36,375 nt of DNA from Anaerolineaceae bacterium (GTDB lineage: Bacteria > Chloroflexota > Anaerolineae > Anaerolineales > UBA11579), in assembly GCA_900299355.1 (NCBI GenBank), contig OMJR01000125.1, forward strand, positions 1-36,375, written 5' to 3'. This document shows, one piece after another, positions 3,483 to 20,019 of this stretch (the stretch's first letter is position 1; every line of letters begins with the position of its first letter). A program made the position numbers and the translations under genes. The notes beneath the pieces were generated by a model, which searched no databases, was not told the DNA's origin, and saw only the letters and a list, made by a program, of their open reading frames with translations.

Positions 3483-3576
3483 GGTAATTGGTAACTAGTA
3501 ATTGGAAACTGAAGCTGCCGAACTGAAGGGAAAGCCTTGAAGCCATTACCATTTACCAGTTACTAATTACTAGCCT
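3483..3576. repeat. AT-rich imperfect inverted-repeat element (GTAATTGGTAACTAGTAATTGG family), copy 1
   Basis: ggtaattggtaactagtaattgg ... ccattaccatttaccagttactaattactagcc; shares 15-nt GTAACTAGTAATTGG with 10841-10855 (reverse). Confidence 0.65.
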
Positions 3577-9131: not shown

Positions 9132-10751
9132 ATGGCCCTCACATTGGAACCGCAATCGAAAACGTCTCTGACTCAATCGCTGCGCGATGGCGCGGCGGGT
9201 TTGTTTGGTGCGCTGGCGCCACGGCCGCCGGCTGCCCTCGGCTTGCACCACTACGATGTGGTGTTGCCGGATGGGCGCGAGATGCGCATCCATTTGCGCA
9301 TTGAGCCCAGCGGGGCGGGAGTGCTCTTTGTGGATGTCACCGATGTGGTGCATCTGAATCCTACTGCGGCCTATATGGCCCAGTTGGCGCTCGAAGAAGT
9401 GCCGATCGCGTCGGCGCGCGCCCAGGTGGCGGCACGCTACCAGGCGGTGCCCTTGGCCCAGATGGAACGCGAGCTGCGCCAGGTCTACGACATGATTGAG
9501 GAGTTCCGCCACCCGGAGGGCGATTGCCCCACCTGCCAATTGAGCAGCACGGTGGAGATGTCGCCGCTGTTCAGTGTGGAGGTCAACGCGCCCTACAAGG
9601 TAGATGTAGCCCTGACCTACGGCTGCAATAACGAGTGCCCGCATTGCTACAACGAGGCGGACCGGCTGGAGATGCCTTCACTGCCGCTGACCGAATGGTA
9701 TGCCGTGATCGACCGCTTGTGCGAACTGGGTGTGCCGCACCTGATCCTGACAGGCGGCGAGGCCACGCTGCATCCCGATTTGCCCGAGATCATTCGCTAT
9801 GCCGATGGCAAGGGCATGGTGGTGGGCCTCAACACGAATGGCCGGCATATCGCCCACAAGCCGTATATGGACGAGTTGGCCGCCGCGGGCCTCAACCATG
9901 TGCAGGTCACCCTGGCGTCCAATCGGGCTGAATTCCACGACGCGATGATGGGCACGACGGCCTTTGAGCAGACCGTGGCCGGGATCCAGAACGCGGTGGC
10001 CAGCAAGGTGCACGTGATTACCAACACGACCTTGATGCGCAACAACATGGATCACGCCGAGGAGATCATTGAATACATCTATGATTTGGGCATCCGCACC
10101 TTTGCGATGAACGGCATGATTTATTCCGGCGGCGGCTTTGCCCATCCGACTGCGATCCCGGAAGAAGATATGCCGCCGCTGCTGATCCGCGTGCGCGATA
10201 AAGCCAACGAACTGGGCATGCGTTTCCTGTGGTACACGCCCACCGAGTACTGCCGCATGTCGCCAGTGGAACTCGAGGTAGGCGCCAAACGCTGCAACGC
10301 GGGCGAATATTCGCTGTGCATTGAGCCCAATGGCGATGTGCTTCCCTGCCAGAGCTATTACGTCTCGGCCGGCAATATCCTGCACGACCCCTGGGAACAG
10401 ATTTGGGATGGCGAACTGTTCCGCTCGTTCCGCTACCGCGAAGAGGATCCCAAGGGATACGGCCTGCCCGAGAAATGCTGGACCTGCCCGGACCTGCCGC
10501 TATGTGGCGGCGGCTGTCGCATTGAGCGCGAGGCGCGCGACGGGGTGCGCGTAGCCAGCGACGGCGGCGGAGGCTGCTCAGGATGCAGCGGCAGCTGCGG
10601 CACCGGGGCGGCGGCCAGCCATGTGCGCAGCCATGCGCCCACCGCGGGCTACATTCCGCAGGGCGGCTTTGTGCCCAGCCCCAGCGCCACCAGCACCAAG
10701 GTACGCGCCAGCGGGGACATGAGTTTGATCGGGTTGGATGAAATTGGATGA
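9132..10751 (+). CDS. Radical SAM/SPASM-like protein with N-terminal PqqD-like region and Cys/Gly-rich C-terminal tail
   Basis: 539 aa; YGCNNECPHCYNEAD (CxxxCxxC), LILTGGEATLH, SPASM-type KRCNAGEYSLCIEPNGDVLPCQ...CWTCPDLPLCGGGC; tail GGGGCSGCSGSCGTG. Confidence 0.92.
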   Translation: MALTLEPQSKTSLTQSLRDGAAGLFGALAPRPPAALGLHHYDVVLPDGREMRIHLRIEPSGAGVLFVDVTDVVHLNPTAAYMAQLALEEVPIASARAQVAARYQAVPLAQMERELRQVYDMIEEFRHPEGDCPTCQLSSTVEMSPLFSVEVNAPYKVDVALTYGCNNECPHCYNEADRLEMPSLPLTEWYAVIDRLCELGVPHLILTGGEATLHPDLPEIIRYADGKGMVVGLNTNGRHIAHKPYMDELAAAGLNHVQVTLASNRAEFHDAMMGTTAFEQTVAGIQNAVASKVHVITNTTLMRNNMDHAEEIIEYIYDLGIRTFAMNGMIYSGGGFAHPTAIPEEDMPPLLIRVRDKANELGMRFLWYTPTEYCRMSPVELEVGAKRCNAGEYSLCIEPNGDVLPCQSYYVSAGNILHDPWEQIWDGELFRSFRYREEDPKGYGLPEKCWTCPDLPLCGGGCRIEREARDGVRVASDGGGGCSGCSGSCGTGAAASHVRSHAPTAGYIPQGGFVPSPSATSTKVRASGDMSLIGLDEIG

Positions 10752-10752
10752 G

Positions 10753-10867
10753 TCTTGAGATTGGTGATTAGAGACTGGCGATTAGTAAGTGGTAACTGGT
10801 AATTACTAATCCTGCACGGTCAATCTCCAGTCCCGTGTCTCCAATTACTAGTTACGAATTACTGTCT
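10753..10867. repeat. AT-rich imperfect inverted-repeat element (GTAACTAGTAATTGG family), copy 2
   Basis: agtaagtggtaactggtaattactaatcc ... ccaattactagttacgaattactg. Confidence 0.6.
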
Positions 10868-11772: not shown

Positions 11773-11822
11773 GGATTTGTCGCTGCGCTTGGCAACGCCA
11801 AGCGCAACGCTCGGAATGACGA
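11773..11822 (+). repeat. Dispersed palindromic repeat: CGCT-hairpin-CGCTCGGAATGACG
   Basis: core tgcgcttggc/aac/gccaagcgca (10-bp stem) followed by acgctcggaatgacg. Confidence 0.65.
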
Positions 11823-13435: not shown

Positions 13436-13470
13436 GGGGTTCCTTCCCTCGGCTTGGCTCGGAATGACGA
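13436..13470 (+). repeat. Degenerate copy of the ...CTCGGAATGACG intergenic repeat
   Basis: ggggttccttccctcggcttggctcggaatgacga. Confidence 0.4.
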
Positions 13471-13550: not shown

Positions 13551-13593
13551 GAGGATTCTTCGGTCGCCACGATGTGGCTCCCTCAGAATGACG
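13551..13593 (+). repeat. Dispersed repeat: GATTCTTCGGT-hairpin-CCTCAGAATGACG
   Basis: gaggattcttcggtcgccacgatgtggctccctcagaatgacg; core gccac/gat/gtggc. Confidence 0.55.
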
Positions 13594-13595
13594 TA

Positions 13596-14825
13596 CTAAT
13601 GGGGCGCCTTCCCCCACACCTTCTCCCATTTATCTTTGACCAGGTTGCCCAACTTCTTCTTGGCGCCCTGGCCGGCGAGCACGTCGCCATCCGGCTCCAC
13701 GTAGAGCCAGGCCTTCCCAGTACCTGACTCAACCGCTCGTTGAGCGGTTGAGTTTGGAGTTTGCGGAGCAAACTCCATCTCACTTGGCGGATTTTCCAGC
13801 TCTAATCTAACCGGATTGAGTTCGGAGTAGGGCACCGGCAGGTCCCAAACCAGCGGCAAATCGATGTAGTCGGCGTGGTCGCGGGCGGCCTGCAGCCTAT
13901 CGGTGAGACCTTTGTCGGCCTCACTGAGCGAGACGGCGGAGACGCCGGCTTCCTTCAAGCGGTCGAGCAGTTGATTGGCTTGTTTGGCATTCTTCTCGGT
14001 CAGTGTCAAGTGTGCGGCGACGAAGATATCGTCGGCCAGCACTTCTTTCCAATAGGCGAAGCCCGCCAGGGATTCCCAGGTCTGCTTCTTGCCGGGTTGC
14101 AGCACGACCATCACGTGGTCCAGCCCCGCGTCCAGCAGGCTCTTGAGGTATTTGGTGTCGCCCAGTTTAAGGCCATCAGTAATCAGGCCGGTGACCATCC
14201 CGTGCGCTTCGCAATGGTCAAGCAGTTCGATCAGGTCTTTGCGCAAGGTCGGCTCGCCGCCGGTGAAGACCGCATGCGGCACGCCGGCCGCCCAGGCCTT
14301 ATCAATCACTGTCTTCCATTCTTCGGTGCTCAACTCTTTATCCACGCGCTTGTGGGGGGCGGCCTCGGCGGGCGCACCCTTGGGCAGCTTATAGGTCAGG
14401 GCGCAATCCAGGCGATAGGGCGCGCTGAGCGCCTCGCTGTAGGGGCGGTGGCGTTCGAAATCCAGGTAGGTTACCGGGTCCAGGTCGGGCACTTCAATCA
14501 AGGCCTGGATTTTCTCGGCGAAGGCGGCGTAATCGGCGGCCGCCTGGGATTTGCCCACCCGGTAGCGCTTGGCGATGGTCTCGGCCACCGTATCGGGCGG
14601 TGTCAGATGAATGAAATGGTAGGCGTATTCGGCGGCGGTCTGGTTGAGATGCAGCACGGTGGCGGCGTTGACCACCAGCACGGCGAAGCCATCCGGCTCC
14701 ACGCGCAGGTGCAGGCGGTAATTGAAGGGATGGCTGGGCGGGGCGGTGTAGGAATACATGCCCGGTTCCAGGCGGCTGGGCCGCTCGGGGTTTAAGCGTT
14801 CGCGCAAGCTATCTAGGATGCCCAT
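13596..14825 (-). CDS. Degenerate radical-SAM paralogue (no Fe-S cysteines) with PqqD-like N-terminal region; likely start MGILDSLRERLNPERP
   Basis: PqqD-like region FNYRLHLRVEPDGFAVLVVNAATVLHLNQTAAEYA parallels MRIHLRIEPSGAGVLFVDVTDVVHLNPTAAYMA of 9132..10751; RLDCALTYKLPKGAPAEAAPHKRVDK replaces the CxxxCxxC loop; GVPHAVFTGGEPTLRKDL retained. ATG 14823-14825 overlaps the upstream TAA (TAATG). Confidence 0.85.
   Translation of the reverse strand: MGILDSLRERLNPERPSRLEPGMYSYTAPPSHPFNYRLHLRVEPDGFAVLVVNAATVLHLNQTAAEYAYHFIHLTPPDTVAETIAKRYRVGKSQAAADYAAFAEKIQALIEVPDLDPVTYLDFERHRPYSEALSAPYRLDCALTYKLPKGAPAEAAPHKRVDKELSTEEWKTVIDKAWAAGVPHAVFTGGEPTLRKDLIELLDHCEAHGMVTGLITDGLKLGDTKYLKSLLDAGLDHVMVVLQPGKKQTWESLAGFAYWKEVLADDIFVAAHLTLTEKNAKQANQLLDRLKEAGVSAVSLSEADKGLTDRLQAARDHADYIDLPLVWDLPVPYSELNPVRLELENPPSEMEFAPQTPNSTAQRAVESGTGKAWLYVEPDGDVLAGQGAKKKLGNLVKDKWEKVWGKAPH
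13727..13777. repeat. Two adjacent perfect hairpins inserted in frame in the radical-SAM paralogue
   Basis: actcaaccgctc/gtt/gagcggttgagt (13727-13753, 12-bp stem) and tggagtttgc/gga/gcaaactcca (13755-13777, 10-bp stem). Confidence 0.85.
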
Positions 14826-16507
14826 TAGCGGCCACCTCCGGCACAAGCACAGGCGCAGCCGGCGCAGGCACAGGCGCAGCTGGAGCCGCCGCCGCTCCAT
14901 CCACCGCCGCTGCTGGAACTGGGTTTAGGCGGCGGGTTGGTGACCTTGGTGACGCCGCCGGTAAAGTCGCTCAGGCTGCCGACCACGCCGGCGGCCATGT
15001 TTTGCACGCCGCCGACCACCGAGGCGGCAAAATCACCACCCGGCAGGCTGGGCAACCCGGCGCCGCCGGTGCCGACCGAGGGCACGTTGCCGCCCGCTTT
15101 GCCGCCACCGCTGCCGCTGGTCACCGTGGACGAGCCACCGTAGCCGGGGTCGTAGCGGCCCCACCAGCGCGGCACAAAGACCGGTCCGGTGAAGACTTCG
15201 CGGCTGCGGCGGTCGTAATCCTGGTCCAGCATGGTCCATTCCAGGTTCTCTTCCAGGGCCGACATTTGCACATCCGGCGTGTCGTCGGCCTGCACCTGCT
15301 CCCAGGCTTGCTTGATGATGTTGCGGTAATACTCCACCGTTTCGCGTTTGCTGAAACCCTTCATCTTATTGGCCACGCTCTTGACCAGCGCGACCATCAT
15401 CTTTTGCAAATCCTTGCGACGCGCGGCCTTGCCCTTGCTGCGGAAGGCCTCTACGAAATCGGTTTCGTACTCGCGCAAGTTGAGCGTGTACTGGCTGGGG
15501 TCGACAATGTCCAGTTCCAGCGGGTCACGCTTGGTGACCGTGGCGGCGCCCTTCTTGACCACCGAAAACAAAATCATGGTCAGGATTTTGTCCATCGGCT
15601 GCTCGAGCAGGATGGCCGCTTCCGGGGCGGTGAGGCCGCGCTTGATGCCGTGGCCGGCAATCGAAATCTTGGGCGGCAGGTACTTGAGCCGGCGCCGGCG
15701 TTCGGCATATACCGAAATGACAATGATGCCCACAAAGAACAGGCAGAAGCAGCCGAAGACCAGGAAACCGAAAATGGCGTCCCAATCAATGTTGTAGCGC
15801 TGGCTGAAGCTGGGCTCGGTAATCGTACCGGCGGGCACGTAAGTCTTGGGGAAGGAGGCGCCGAAGAGATAGAAGCTGGAGCCGCTGGCGTTGGGGTTGC
15901 GCCAGGTATAGGTGATGCGACCCTGCTCGTCAATCGCGGTCACCGGCTGCTCGGGGAAGCCGCTGGGGGCGGGGTGCCAGCGCGGCTCGGCGGGGGTCAC
16001 ACCGGGCGGCAGATGGTAGGTGACAGTGATGTCAGCCGAGCCGTGCACGAATTCGGAGCCGAAGTAATTGGGCGCAAAGACGGCGCTGGCGTAGGCGTCG
16101 TCCTCGTTATCGGTGAAGAGCACATCGCGGATATCGGTCACCCGCATGGTGACCGTGCCGGTGTTGCCGGGGCGGATGGCGTTGCCGCCCAGGCCCAGCG
16201 CCACGCCGTAGGTGACATAGGGCGAGTCTTCGATGTTGGTGATGCGCGCGCCATCCACTTCGGCGCTGATGTTGGCGATGCTGTAATTGTTGTTGGGCAG
16301 ACCCACATCCACATAGTCAATCGCGTCGGCCCCGCCATCGTTGGCGAAGACCATCTCGTATTCGATATCCAGGGTGCCATCGCTCTGCCAGTAGAGGTCC
16401 ACCTTTTCACGTACCAGCTGGAAAGAATAGGTCTGCAAAAGCGGGGATGCGGCCGACAAAACCAACATCCCAAGCAAAACGATGACAATAAGCCAGATTC
16501 GTTTCAT
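14825..16507 (-). CDS. DUF2207-like membrane protein with Cys-Ala repeat C-terminus, candidate radical-SAM target
   Basis: Likely start MKRIWLIVIVLLGMLVLSAASPLL (ATG 16505-16507); extracytoplasmic beta region, TM, cytoplasmic region, Gly-rich linker, end GGGWSGGGSSCACACAGCACACAGGGR. Confidence 0.85.
   Translation of the reverse strand: MKRIWLIVIVLLGMLVLSAASPLLQTYSFQLVREKVDLYWQSDGTLDIEYEMVFANDGGADAIDYVDVGLPNNNYSIANISAEVDGARITNIEDSPYVTYGVALGLGGNAIRPGNTGTVTMRVTDIRDVLFTDNEDDAYASAVFAPNYFGSEFVHGSADITVTYHLPPGVTPAEPRWHPAPSGFPEQPVTAIDEQGRITYTWRNPNASGSSFYLFGASFPKTYVPAGTITEPSFSQRYNIDWDAIFGFLVFGCFCLFFVGIIVISVYAERRRRLKYLPPKISIAGHGIKRGLTAPEAAILLEQPMDKILTMILFSVVKKGAATVTKRDPLELDIVDPSQYTLNLREYETDFVEAFRSKGKAARRKDLQKMMVALVKSVANKMKGFSKRETVEYYRNIIKQAWEQVQADDTPDVQMSALEENLEWTMLDQDYDRRSREVFTGPVFVPRWWGRYDPGYGGSSTVTSGSGGGKAGGNVPSVGTGGAGLPSLPGGDFAASVVGGVQNMAAGVVGSLSDFTGGVTKVTNPPPKPSSSSGGGWSGGGSSCACACAGCACACAGGGR
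14840..14878 (-). repeat. Two near-identical 18-nt units encoding the CACACA-G-CACACA tail
   Basis: + strand ggcacaagcacaggcgca (14840-14857), gcc, ggcgcaggcacaggcgca (14861-14878). Confidence 0.8.
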
Positions 16508-19465: not shown

Positions 19466-19499
19466 AACATCCCTCAAAAAGAATCTTCCGCTTAAGACT

Positions 19500-19550
19500 G
19501 GAGTCGAGGCCTTAGCCGGTTGACTTAACCCCGGCTAAAGCCTCGACTCC
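19500..19550. repeat. 20-nt inverted repeat with 11-nt loop (REP-like or terminator)
   Basis: ggagtcgaggccttagccgg (19500-19519) / ccggctaaagcctcgactcc (19531-19550), 19/20 complementary. Confidence 0.8.
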
Positions 19551-19570
19551 GAAACTCAGCCTGCTGATTG

Positions 19571-19612
19571 TGTCACCCTGAGTGGGGCGCACAATGTGCA
19601 CCCGCGAAGGGT
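19571..19612 (-). repeat. Palindromic repeat flanking the GIY-YIG gene, minus-strand orientation
   Basis: minus strand ACCCTTCGCGGGTGCACATTGTGCGCCCCACTCAGGGTGACA. Confidence 0.65.
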
Positions 19613-19656
19613 AATTGCCGAGTGATGCAAATCGCGGCCACAGCCGAAATAAGGCA

Positions 19657-19949
19657 ATGACCAAAGCTTACGTGTACATCCTGGGTAACCAAGGCAACCT
19701 GCTCTATGTGGGTGTTACCAATGATTTGAACGCCGGATGTTTGAGCACAAAACCAAGGCCATAAAGGGATATTCCAGCAAATACTCGATTGACCGCCTGT
19801 TGTATTTTGAGGAATTTGGGCATCCGCAGGACGCAATTGAATCCGAGAAACGCATCAAAGGTTGGTTGAAGCGCAAGAAACTTGACCTAGTCAGAACGAT
19901 GAATCCAAAATTTAAGGATTTGAGTGAAGGTTGGTTTGATGTCGGCTAG
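19657..19949 (+). pseudogene. GIY-YIG nuclease family protein (about 97 aa), interrupted by a one-base deletion at about 19728
   Basis: MTKAYVYILGNQGNLLYVGVTNDL (19657-19728) then, one frame over, (E)RRMFEHKTKAIKGYSSKYSIDRLLYFEEFGHPQDAIESEKRIKGWLKRKKLDLVRTMNPKFKDLSEGW; adding one G restores NDLERRMFEHK. Confidence 0.85.
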
Positions 19950-19975
19950 CTAGGATTATGGTCCAACATTGCAAA

Positions 19976-20019
19976 TATCCTTCGCTGGCACACCTGCGGT
20001 GCGCCGCTCAGGATGACAT
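19976..20019 (+). repeat. Palindromic repeat flanking the GIY-YIG gene, plus-strand orientation
   Basis: tatccttcgctggcacacctgcggtgcgccgctcaggatgaca. Confidence 0.65.

Follow-up and report, generated by a model that had tools for sequence, protein, structure and literature searches.

Inverted, tagged palindromes bracket a small GIY-YIG nuclease gene in a recurrent bacterial unit

The window, by which we mean the whole stretch of DNA analysed (36,375 nucleotides; positions 1 to 36,375 of contig OMJR01000125.1 from an Anaerolineaceae bacterium, assembly GCA_900299355.1), contains a small GIY-YIG nuclease gene bracketed by two palindromic elements in inverted orientation, together with scattered relatives of these elements:

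19571-19612, plus strand: left palindromic element, TGTCACCCTGAGTGGGGCGCACAATGTGCACCCGCGAAGGGT, with an outward TGTC tag (direct reading; tag and stem scan)
19657-19734, plus strand: GIY-YIG gene, first frame (MTKAYVYILGNQGNLLYVGVTNDLNA), residues 1-26, matching PF01541 positions 1-24 (translation)
19740-19949, plus strand: GIY-YIG gene, second frame (FEHKTK...EKRIKGW...NPKFKDLSEGWFDVG), matching PF01541 positions 29-76 (own-genome search; alignment)
19977-20018, minus strand: right palindromic element, ATCCTTCGCTGGCACACCTGCGGTGCGCCGCTCAGGATGACA, inverted, with an outward TGTC tag (direct reading; tag and stem scan)
13555-13593, minus strand: orphan element of the same superfamily, with tag CGTC, stem ATTCT/AGAAT and GA/GA (direct reading; scan)
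11775-11821, minus strand: degenerate related palindrome (..CTCGGAATGACG; direct reading)
13437-13469, minus strand: degenerate related palindrome (..GGCTCGGAATGACG; direct reading)

The left element is laid out as TGTC-ACCCT-GA-(hairpin)-GA-AGGGT and the right one as TGTC-ATCCT-GA-(hairpin)-GA-AGGAT, the latter being also recovered in the own-genome pattern search (19979-20018); when folded as single-stranded DNA, both give a hairpin with a GA/GA internal loop. The 36 kb window holds two exact matches to CTCAGGRTGACA, both of them in the elements of the unit and facing outward. The inverted palindromes that the sequence-only reading had placed on either side of a GIY-YIG gene are present at 19571-19612 and 19977-20018, with their tags outward. 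The gene itself was taken in that reading for an open frame of ~97 aa (19657-19949), which does not hold: it occupies two frames, with a frameshift near 19735, and each half separately matches PF01541, the stop codon of the second frame lying at 19947-19949. Since the halves are in different frames, this is either a decayed copy (pseudogene) or an assembly error. A scan of the window for a tag, a 5-bp stem and its complement found three tandem GA/GA elements, namely, the pair of the unit and the orphan at 13555-13593; of the related elements claimed at 11773, 13436 and 13551, the last corresponds to this good element, whereas the other two are degenerate relatives.

Other repeats and genes of the window deserve mention. 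Immediately to the left of the unit (19498-19551) lies a dispersed inverted repeat, GGAGTCGAGGCCTTAGCCGG...CCCGGCTAAAGCCTCGACTCC, which also occurs in L010 at about 1577-1634, and a different intergenic family is represented by the AT-rich dispersed repeat TTGGTAACTAGTAATTGG and its inverted copies at 3484-3572 and 10783-10862. Two radical-SAM/SPASM-like genes are encoded at 13596-14900 (minus strand) and 9132-10751 (plus strand). The former resembles the latter, which has CNNECPHCYNE, and is without the CxxxCxxC cluster motif (LDCALTYKLPKGAPAE); by sequence, it is apparently a paralog that has lost the cluster motif, close to an intact gene.

Of the six PF01541 genes in the window's own genome (2.1 Mb, 173 contigs), one encodes UvrC and the other five are small. 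All five of the small genes are bracketed by outward palindromes, albeit with a degraded left copy at the C118 gene, and the stems at these five units are ATTCC (two), ATGCT (one) and ACCCT/ATCCT (two, window included). At the UvrC locus, no GA/GA element was found, and UvrC is not bracketed. Orphan elements are numerous in this genome, with 69 matches to a degenerate pattern versus none to a reversed control pattern. Beside orphan elements, at about 1558-1590 in L007 and about 1310-1335 in L010, the repeat GGGCGAGGCATGCCTCGCCCCTAC constitutes a further own-genome family.

The protein is about 97 aa long and comprises the GIY-YIG domain alone, with PF01541 E values to 1e-17 for intact copies. 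The catalytic positions, with their Tyr, Arg and Glu, are conserved: Y11, R32, H36, E69, K73 and N88 are invariant in an alignment of 40 proteins from many phyla. The AlphaFold model (pLDDT 90.6) has the GIY-YIG fold, and the closest solved structures are UPF0213 BH0048 (1zg2), Slx1 and the UvrC N-terminal domain.

For a wider survey, we assembled 175 distinct small GIY-YIG genes: 80 cross-phylum loci, being the best tblastn matches to three proteins of the window genome, and the remainder from relatives within the order. The 220-nt flanks of each gene were compared as inverted copies, with other genes in the same loci as controls. Left and right flanks matched at a score of at least 12 for 93/171 GIY-YIG genes versus 8/195 control genes, and at a score of at least 20 for 46/171 versus 0/195; such repeats are thus much commoner beside these genes than beside others, contrary to the outcome that the sequence-only reading had named as its refutation. 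The density of element half-sites falls about 20-fold, from 5.96/kb within 100 nt of the gene to 0.26/kb at 500-700 nt. In multi-unit genomes, the flanks of one unit match each other in 49% of comparisons at a score of at least 14, versus 8% for the flanks of different units, and 0/5000 within-genome permutations of the flank pairing reached the observed sum. The nearest elements on the two sides of a gene form 38 outward pairs, 14 inward pairs and 19 that point the same way. The bracketing of the nuclease gene by palindromes is, therefore, confirmed as real and far above chance, and the pairing of the two recurs in many bacterial phyla, although about half of the small genes have no element that could be detected in their flanks.

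Among Chloroflexota relatives, the number of GIY-YIG genes correlates with that of elements (Spearman 0.48, p = 8e-5), the exceptions including G041 (336 elements and two PF01541 matches) and G010 (38 elements and none). The 336 elements of G041 belong to a small number of near-identical forms and represent a great expansion accompanied by few genes. Element type follows protein similarity to a modest degree: nearest-neighbour proteins share an element type in 15/27 cases versus 7.2 expected, with host relatedness as a confounder; this test is weak, because exact-stem matching gave 27 units and the left and right stems often differ. In a Gracilimonas genome (G067:C37:205203-206214; L242, L257), three GIY-YIG genes, one of them with an internal stop, lie in tandem with a 398-nt period; the scan did not find tag elements in this array.

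A scan of the flanks for a tag, a 5-bp stem and its complement yielded 186 distinct outward elements versus 1.6 per shuffle. The elements have in common a YGTC tag, then a 5-bp stem that covaries, tandem GA/GA mismatches and, innermost, a hairpin: GA occurs on both sides inside the stem in 137/186 elements, giving tandem G.A mismatches. In the shortest elements (GTCAYNNYGAGC-NNN-GCGARNNRT; n = 94), the 5-bp stem is complementary in 89, over ten sequence types, and the loop is GNA in 80 (N being C, A, T or G) versus the complementary TNC in a single case. In single-stranded DNA, unusual stability is a property of both d(GCGNAGC) hairpins and Y-GA-R tandem G.A pairs; from this, given the GNA loops, we infer that the palindromes form a hairpin from one DNA strand, namely, the tag strand. 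This strand specificity rests on the loop counts: the predicted fold had the shape anticipated, but the folding energies of the short form did not separate the tag strand from its complement, the parameters of the tool having no clear bonus for GNA loops.

Empty sites exist for several units, which are present or absent as a whole between orthologous neighbours in a Chloroflexota genus, in Sphingobium and in Sinorhizobium. In the first, G019 carries the L165 unit (513 bp including filler), which is missing from G015, G016 and G018, where 28 nt separate the flanking matches; G015 and G019 both carry the L149 unit, which G012, G016, G017 and G018 lack, their neighbouring genes lying a few nucleotides apart. 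These Chloroflexota empty sites hold no palindrome, and there is no clear target-site duplication at either of the two insertions. In Sphingobium, a unit lies between fnrL and a response regulator gene in three records; of three compared records without it, two (TYG64 and TYG74) hold one palindrome tagged at both ends and the third has none. A lone double-tagged palindrome is also seen in Sinorhizobium K101, where S. meliloti Ak57 carries two tandem units (L221 1159-1950) that share a spacer and of which the first retains only a remnant of its GIY-YIG gene. Moreover, the same relation is found for a gene-less dimer in G018, which corresponds to a double-tagged palindrome at the matching site of G016 and is bounded on both sides by the stem sequence ATTGC as a 5-nt direct repeat; neither dimer nor palindrome occurs there in the more distant relatives G008, G020 and G022. 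Judged from these sequences, the lone double-tagged palindrome may represent either a target for insertion or a scar left by excision. Four further orphan sites compared between G016 and G018 show replaced segments, not clean insertions, and the boundaries of units are blurred by 5-15% divergence because each species is represented by one genome. Additionally, an intergenic site in genus g9 (L303/L304/L313) carries different dimers and inverted repeats depending on the genome (ATTGC, ATTCC and others), as in an insertion hotspot.

The nuclease gene and its inverted, strand-specific hairpin elements form one recurrent unit, which is either there or missing whole at matching sites. We think it probable that the window holds a decayed minimal mobile unit of this kind, with the palindromes serving as cognate sites of the nuclease and the nuclease aiding their spread; cutting, binding and the role of the nuclease in movement are putative. 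The unit would consist of an outward-tagged palindrome, the small GIY-YIG nuclease gene and an inverted, outward-tagged palindrome. When single-stranded, the tag strand would fold through its YGTC tag, 5-bp stem and tandem G.A mismatches into either a GC-rich hairpin or a GNA mini-hairpin; the nuclease would nick this hairpin, single-stranded or extruded as a cruciform, near the tagged base while DNA is being replicated or taken up; and copying, insertion or removal of the unit would then be the work of host repair or replication. Gene-less dimers with their tags outward would represent non-autonomous, REPIN-like derivatives. Among gene-less neighbouring elements within 170 nt of each other, 41 pairs are tag-outward, 9 are tag-inward and 12 point in the same direction, the positions being drawn solely from the matches listed in two element searches.

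The best of the alternatives, which we hold to be plausible though somewhat doubtful, is that nuclease and repeats are a domesticated pair: the enzyme would cut its own repeats in single-stranded DNA, thereby limiting or shaping DNA uptake and recombination, and the flanking copies would be regulatory or target sites of a gene that is not mobile. Neisseria Ssn is said to modulate natural transformation, and orthologous copies kept at one site are under purifying selection (dN/dS about 0.05-0.13 where dS could be estimated, dS being near saturation), strong selection of this kind fitting a host function as well as the mobile unit. Caulobacter crescentus, moreover, has three such small GIY-YIG genes, one of which carries an SOS box (PMC1839093). 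Against this, whole units with both palindromes come and go between intact neighbouring genes, one unit lies between sufB and sufC in Azospirillum lipoferum, and genomes carry several divergent copies that frequently decay, the window copy included. A mobile unit may, nevertheless, also be domesticated in some hosts, and the confidence attached to our explanation and to its rivals is not to be read as exclusive shares.

A free-standing, homing-type endonuclease appears rather unlikely: here the ORF would cut a lone palindrome and enter it by gene conversion, and the repeats would be its target, not its own ends. The single double-tagged palindromes at the empty sites of Sphingobium and Sinorhizobium look as if a unit had opened them, and the gene-less dimer with its 5-nt direct repeat stands in the same relation to its empty site; excision scars, however, would equally predict double-tagged palindromes, dimers behave alike without a gene, and the two Chloroflexota empty sites are devoid of palindromes. 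Neither homing nor domestication is fully exclusive of the mobile-unit mechanism.

The elements can be related to a known class of repeats. Di Nocera et al. 2013 (PMC3733652) defined CGTC-tagged REPs, which take in the dRS3 of Neisseria and RPE-4/RPE-6 of Rickettsia and are apparently without a dedicated transposase. Tagged palindromes of this superfamily bracket a small GIY-YIG gene in 10/12 named loci of a plasmid collection, covering species and genera named in the survey (A. lipoferum, Sinorhizobium meliloti, Novosphingobium aromaticivorans, Sphingobium and Neisseria) as well as Shinella, Rhizobium, Aeromonas, Spirosoma and Planktothrix. The defining features (a CGTC/TGTC tag, an AT-initiated 8-9-bp stem, a 4-5-nt loop and a CCA tail) are found in many proteobacterial and Bacteroidota units, one example being CGTC-ATCCTCGG-GCTTGAC-CCGAGGAT-CCA, and several flanks from Alphaproteobacteria agree closely with them. 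Another trait of the class, pairs with one prevailing relative orientation, is seen in the gene-less neighbours described above. The window elements fit as to the TGTC tag and the AT/AC start, but their 5-bp stem leads into GA/GA and an inner hairpin of greater length; by sequence, they are a variant and not a textbook CGTC REP. On plasmid p1 of Planktothrix agardhii (L225), a GIY-YIG unit has an MmeI-type restriction gene on one side and the DISARM gene drmA on the other. Several megabase 'plasmid' records, such as NZ_CP119140.1, CP090106.1 and NZ_AP026896.1, resemble chromosomes, one example carrying gltA and lpxB.

In an independent sample of 59 Alphaproteobacteria, a small GIY-YIG gene is present in 9/9 genomes with at least 10 REPs versus 21/50 of the others (Fisher p = 0.002), the small-gene counts being assigned by hand using open-frame length. 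The flank enrichment was reproduced in this sample: the flanks of the GIY-YIG genes of REP-rich genomes match as inverted copies in 12/25 cases versus 2.9% when re-paired.

That Y1 (RAYT/IS200) transposases move the elements, with the GIY-YIG genes as passengers or residents of an insertion hotspot, is very improbable. GTAG-type REPs are linked to RAYTs (PMC3733652), and Y1 proteins do occur in the genomes of many Chloroflexota relatives; yet, there is no Y1 match in 6/8 of the REP-rich Alphaproteobacteria checked, nor in G053, GA/GA elements are absent from all eight Y1 loci sampled, and no CGTC repeats have been reported to flank Y1 genes (PMC3733652). Finally, coincidence between a very common repeat (69 orphan copies in the window's genome) and any intergenic gene has practically no credit left, being excluded by the density gradient, orientation, within-genome pairing, shuffles and control genes.

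Returning to the mobile unit, we would venture, more tentatively, that the purely hydrolytic GIY-YIG nuclease is the missing mobilizer of the CGTC-type REP superfamily, including the GA/GA palindromes of the window type in many phyla, and that it moves them as single-strand hairpins without a transposase. An enzyme with a footprint matching that of the CGTC REPs, which are said to lack one, is present in several of the survey's species and genera; Chloroflexota, cyanobacteria, Bacteroidota, candidate phyla and others have it together with a distinct element design. Should the nuclease indeed drive the spread, the units (about 450-600 bp) would be among the smallest self-spreading ones in bacteria, relying on a nuclease chemistry that is not known for transposition. 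They are also the likely source of a type of repeat that is very common in MAGs (TGTCATTCTGAGCGAAGCGAAGAATCT and kin).

A literature search, including searches by repeat sequence, found no link between GIY-YIG nucleases and REPs; its coverage did not extend to the work on Ssn, the site-specific single-strand nucleases. That work (2025, Nature Communications) reportedly describes a wide family of small GIY-YIG nucleases that cut single-stranded DNA at repeats, NTS in the case of Neisseria, and is said to emphasize this cutting and transformation. A related nuclease-repeat pairing has thus reportedly been published already: a small GIY-YIG protein is again paired with a many-copy repeat, and in Neisseria, CGTCATTCCCGCGCAGGCGGGAATC flanks a member of the present family. 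By contrast, the Ssn work may contain neither unit mobility nor the GA/GA-GNA design, nor an equation of the elements with CGTC REPs. Unless reported there, what appears to be new is that the units are paired and face outward, that they are gained and lost, that their elements follow the GA/GA-GNA design and that these can be identified with CGTC REPs.

Compared with other known systems, free-standing GIY-YIG homing endonucleases of the Seg/I-TevI type share the catalytic domain, a mobile gene and gain or loss at defined sites, whereas the present proteins (about 97 aa) have no C-terminal DNA-binding domains, their sites are dispersed palindromes and the gene brings bracketing repeats of its own. 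The UPF0213/YhbQ-like and SLX1 nucleases have the same fold, but repair or resolvase proteins with this fold are not known to have cognate repeats at their flanks. CGTC REPs resemble the present elements in the CGTC or TGTC tag, a stem starting with complementary AT, the short loop, the CCA tail and the paired dimers; the survey, however, includes no CGTC elements from Chloroflexota, and the stems it reports are plain and 8-9 bp long (PMC3733652), as opposed to the 5-bp stem, tandem GA/GA and variable inner hairpin of the window type. A further parallel is with REPtrons, comprising a RAYT/TnpA-REP with GTAG REPs, and with REPINs: inverted palindromes bracket a single small gene, a single-stranded hairpin is likely to be recognized and paired elements spread without the gene. 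The differences lie in the tag and in the enzyme, an HUH Y1 transposase there and a hydrolytic GIY-YIG nuclease here, and for the latter class we know of no strand-transfer activity. The presence or absence of units at orthologous sites, together with the flank tests, lends good support, at the level of anatomy, to the sequence-only reading's likeness to a RAYT/REPtron in which GIY-YIG replaces Y1. The GIY-YIG unit is not a REPtron but may work like one.
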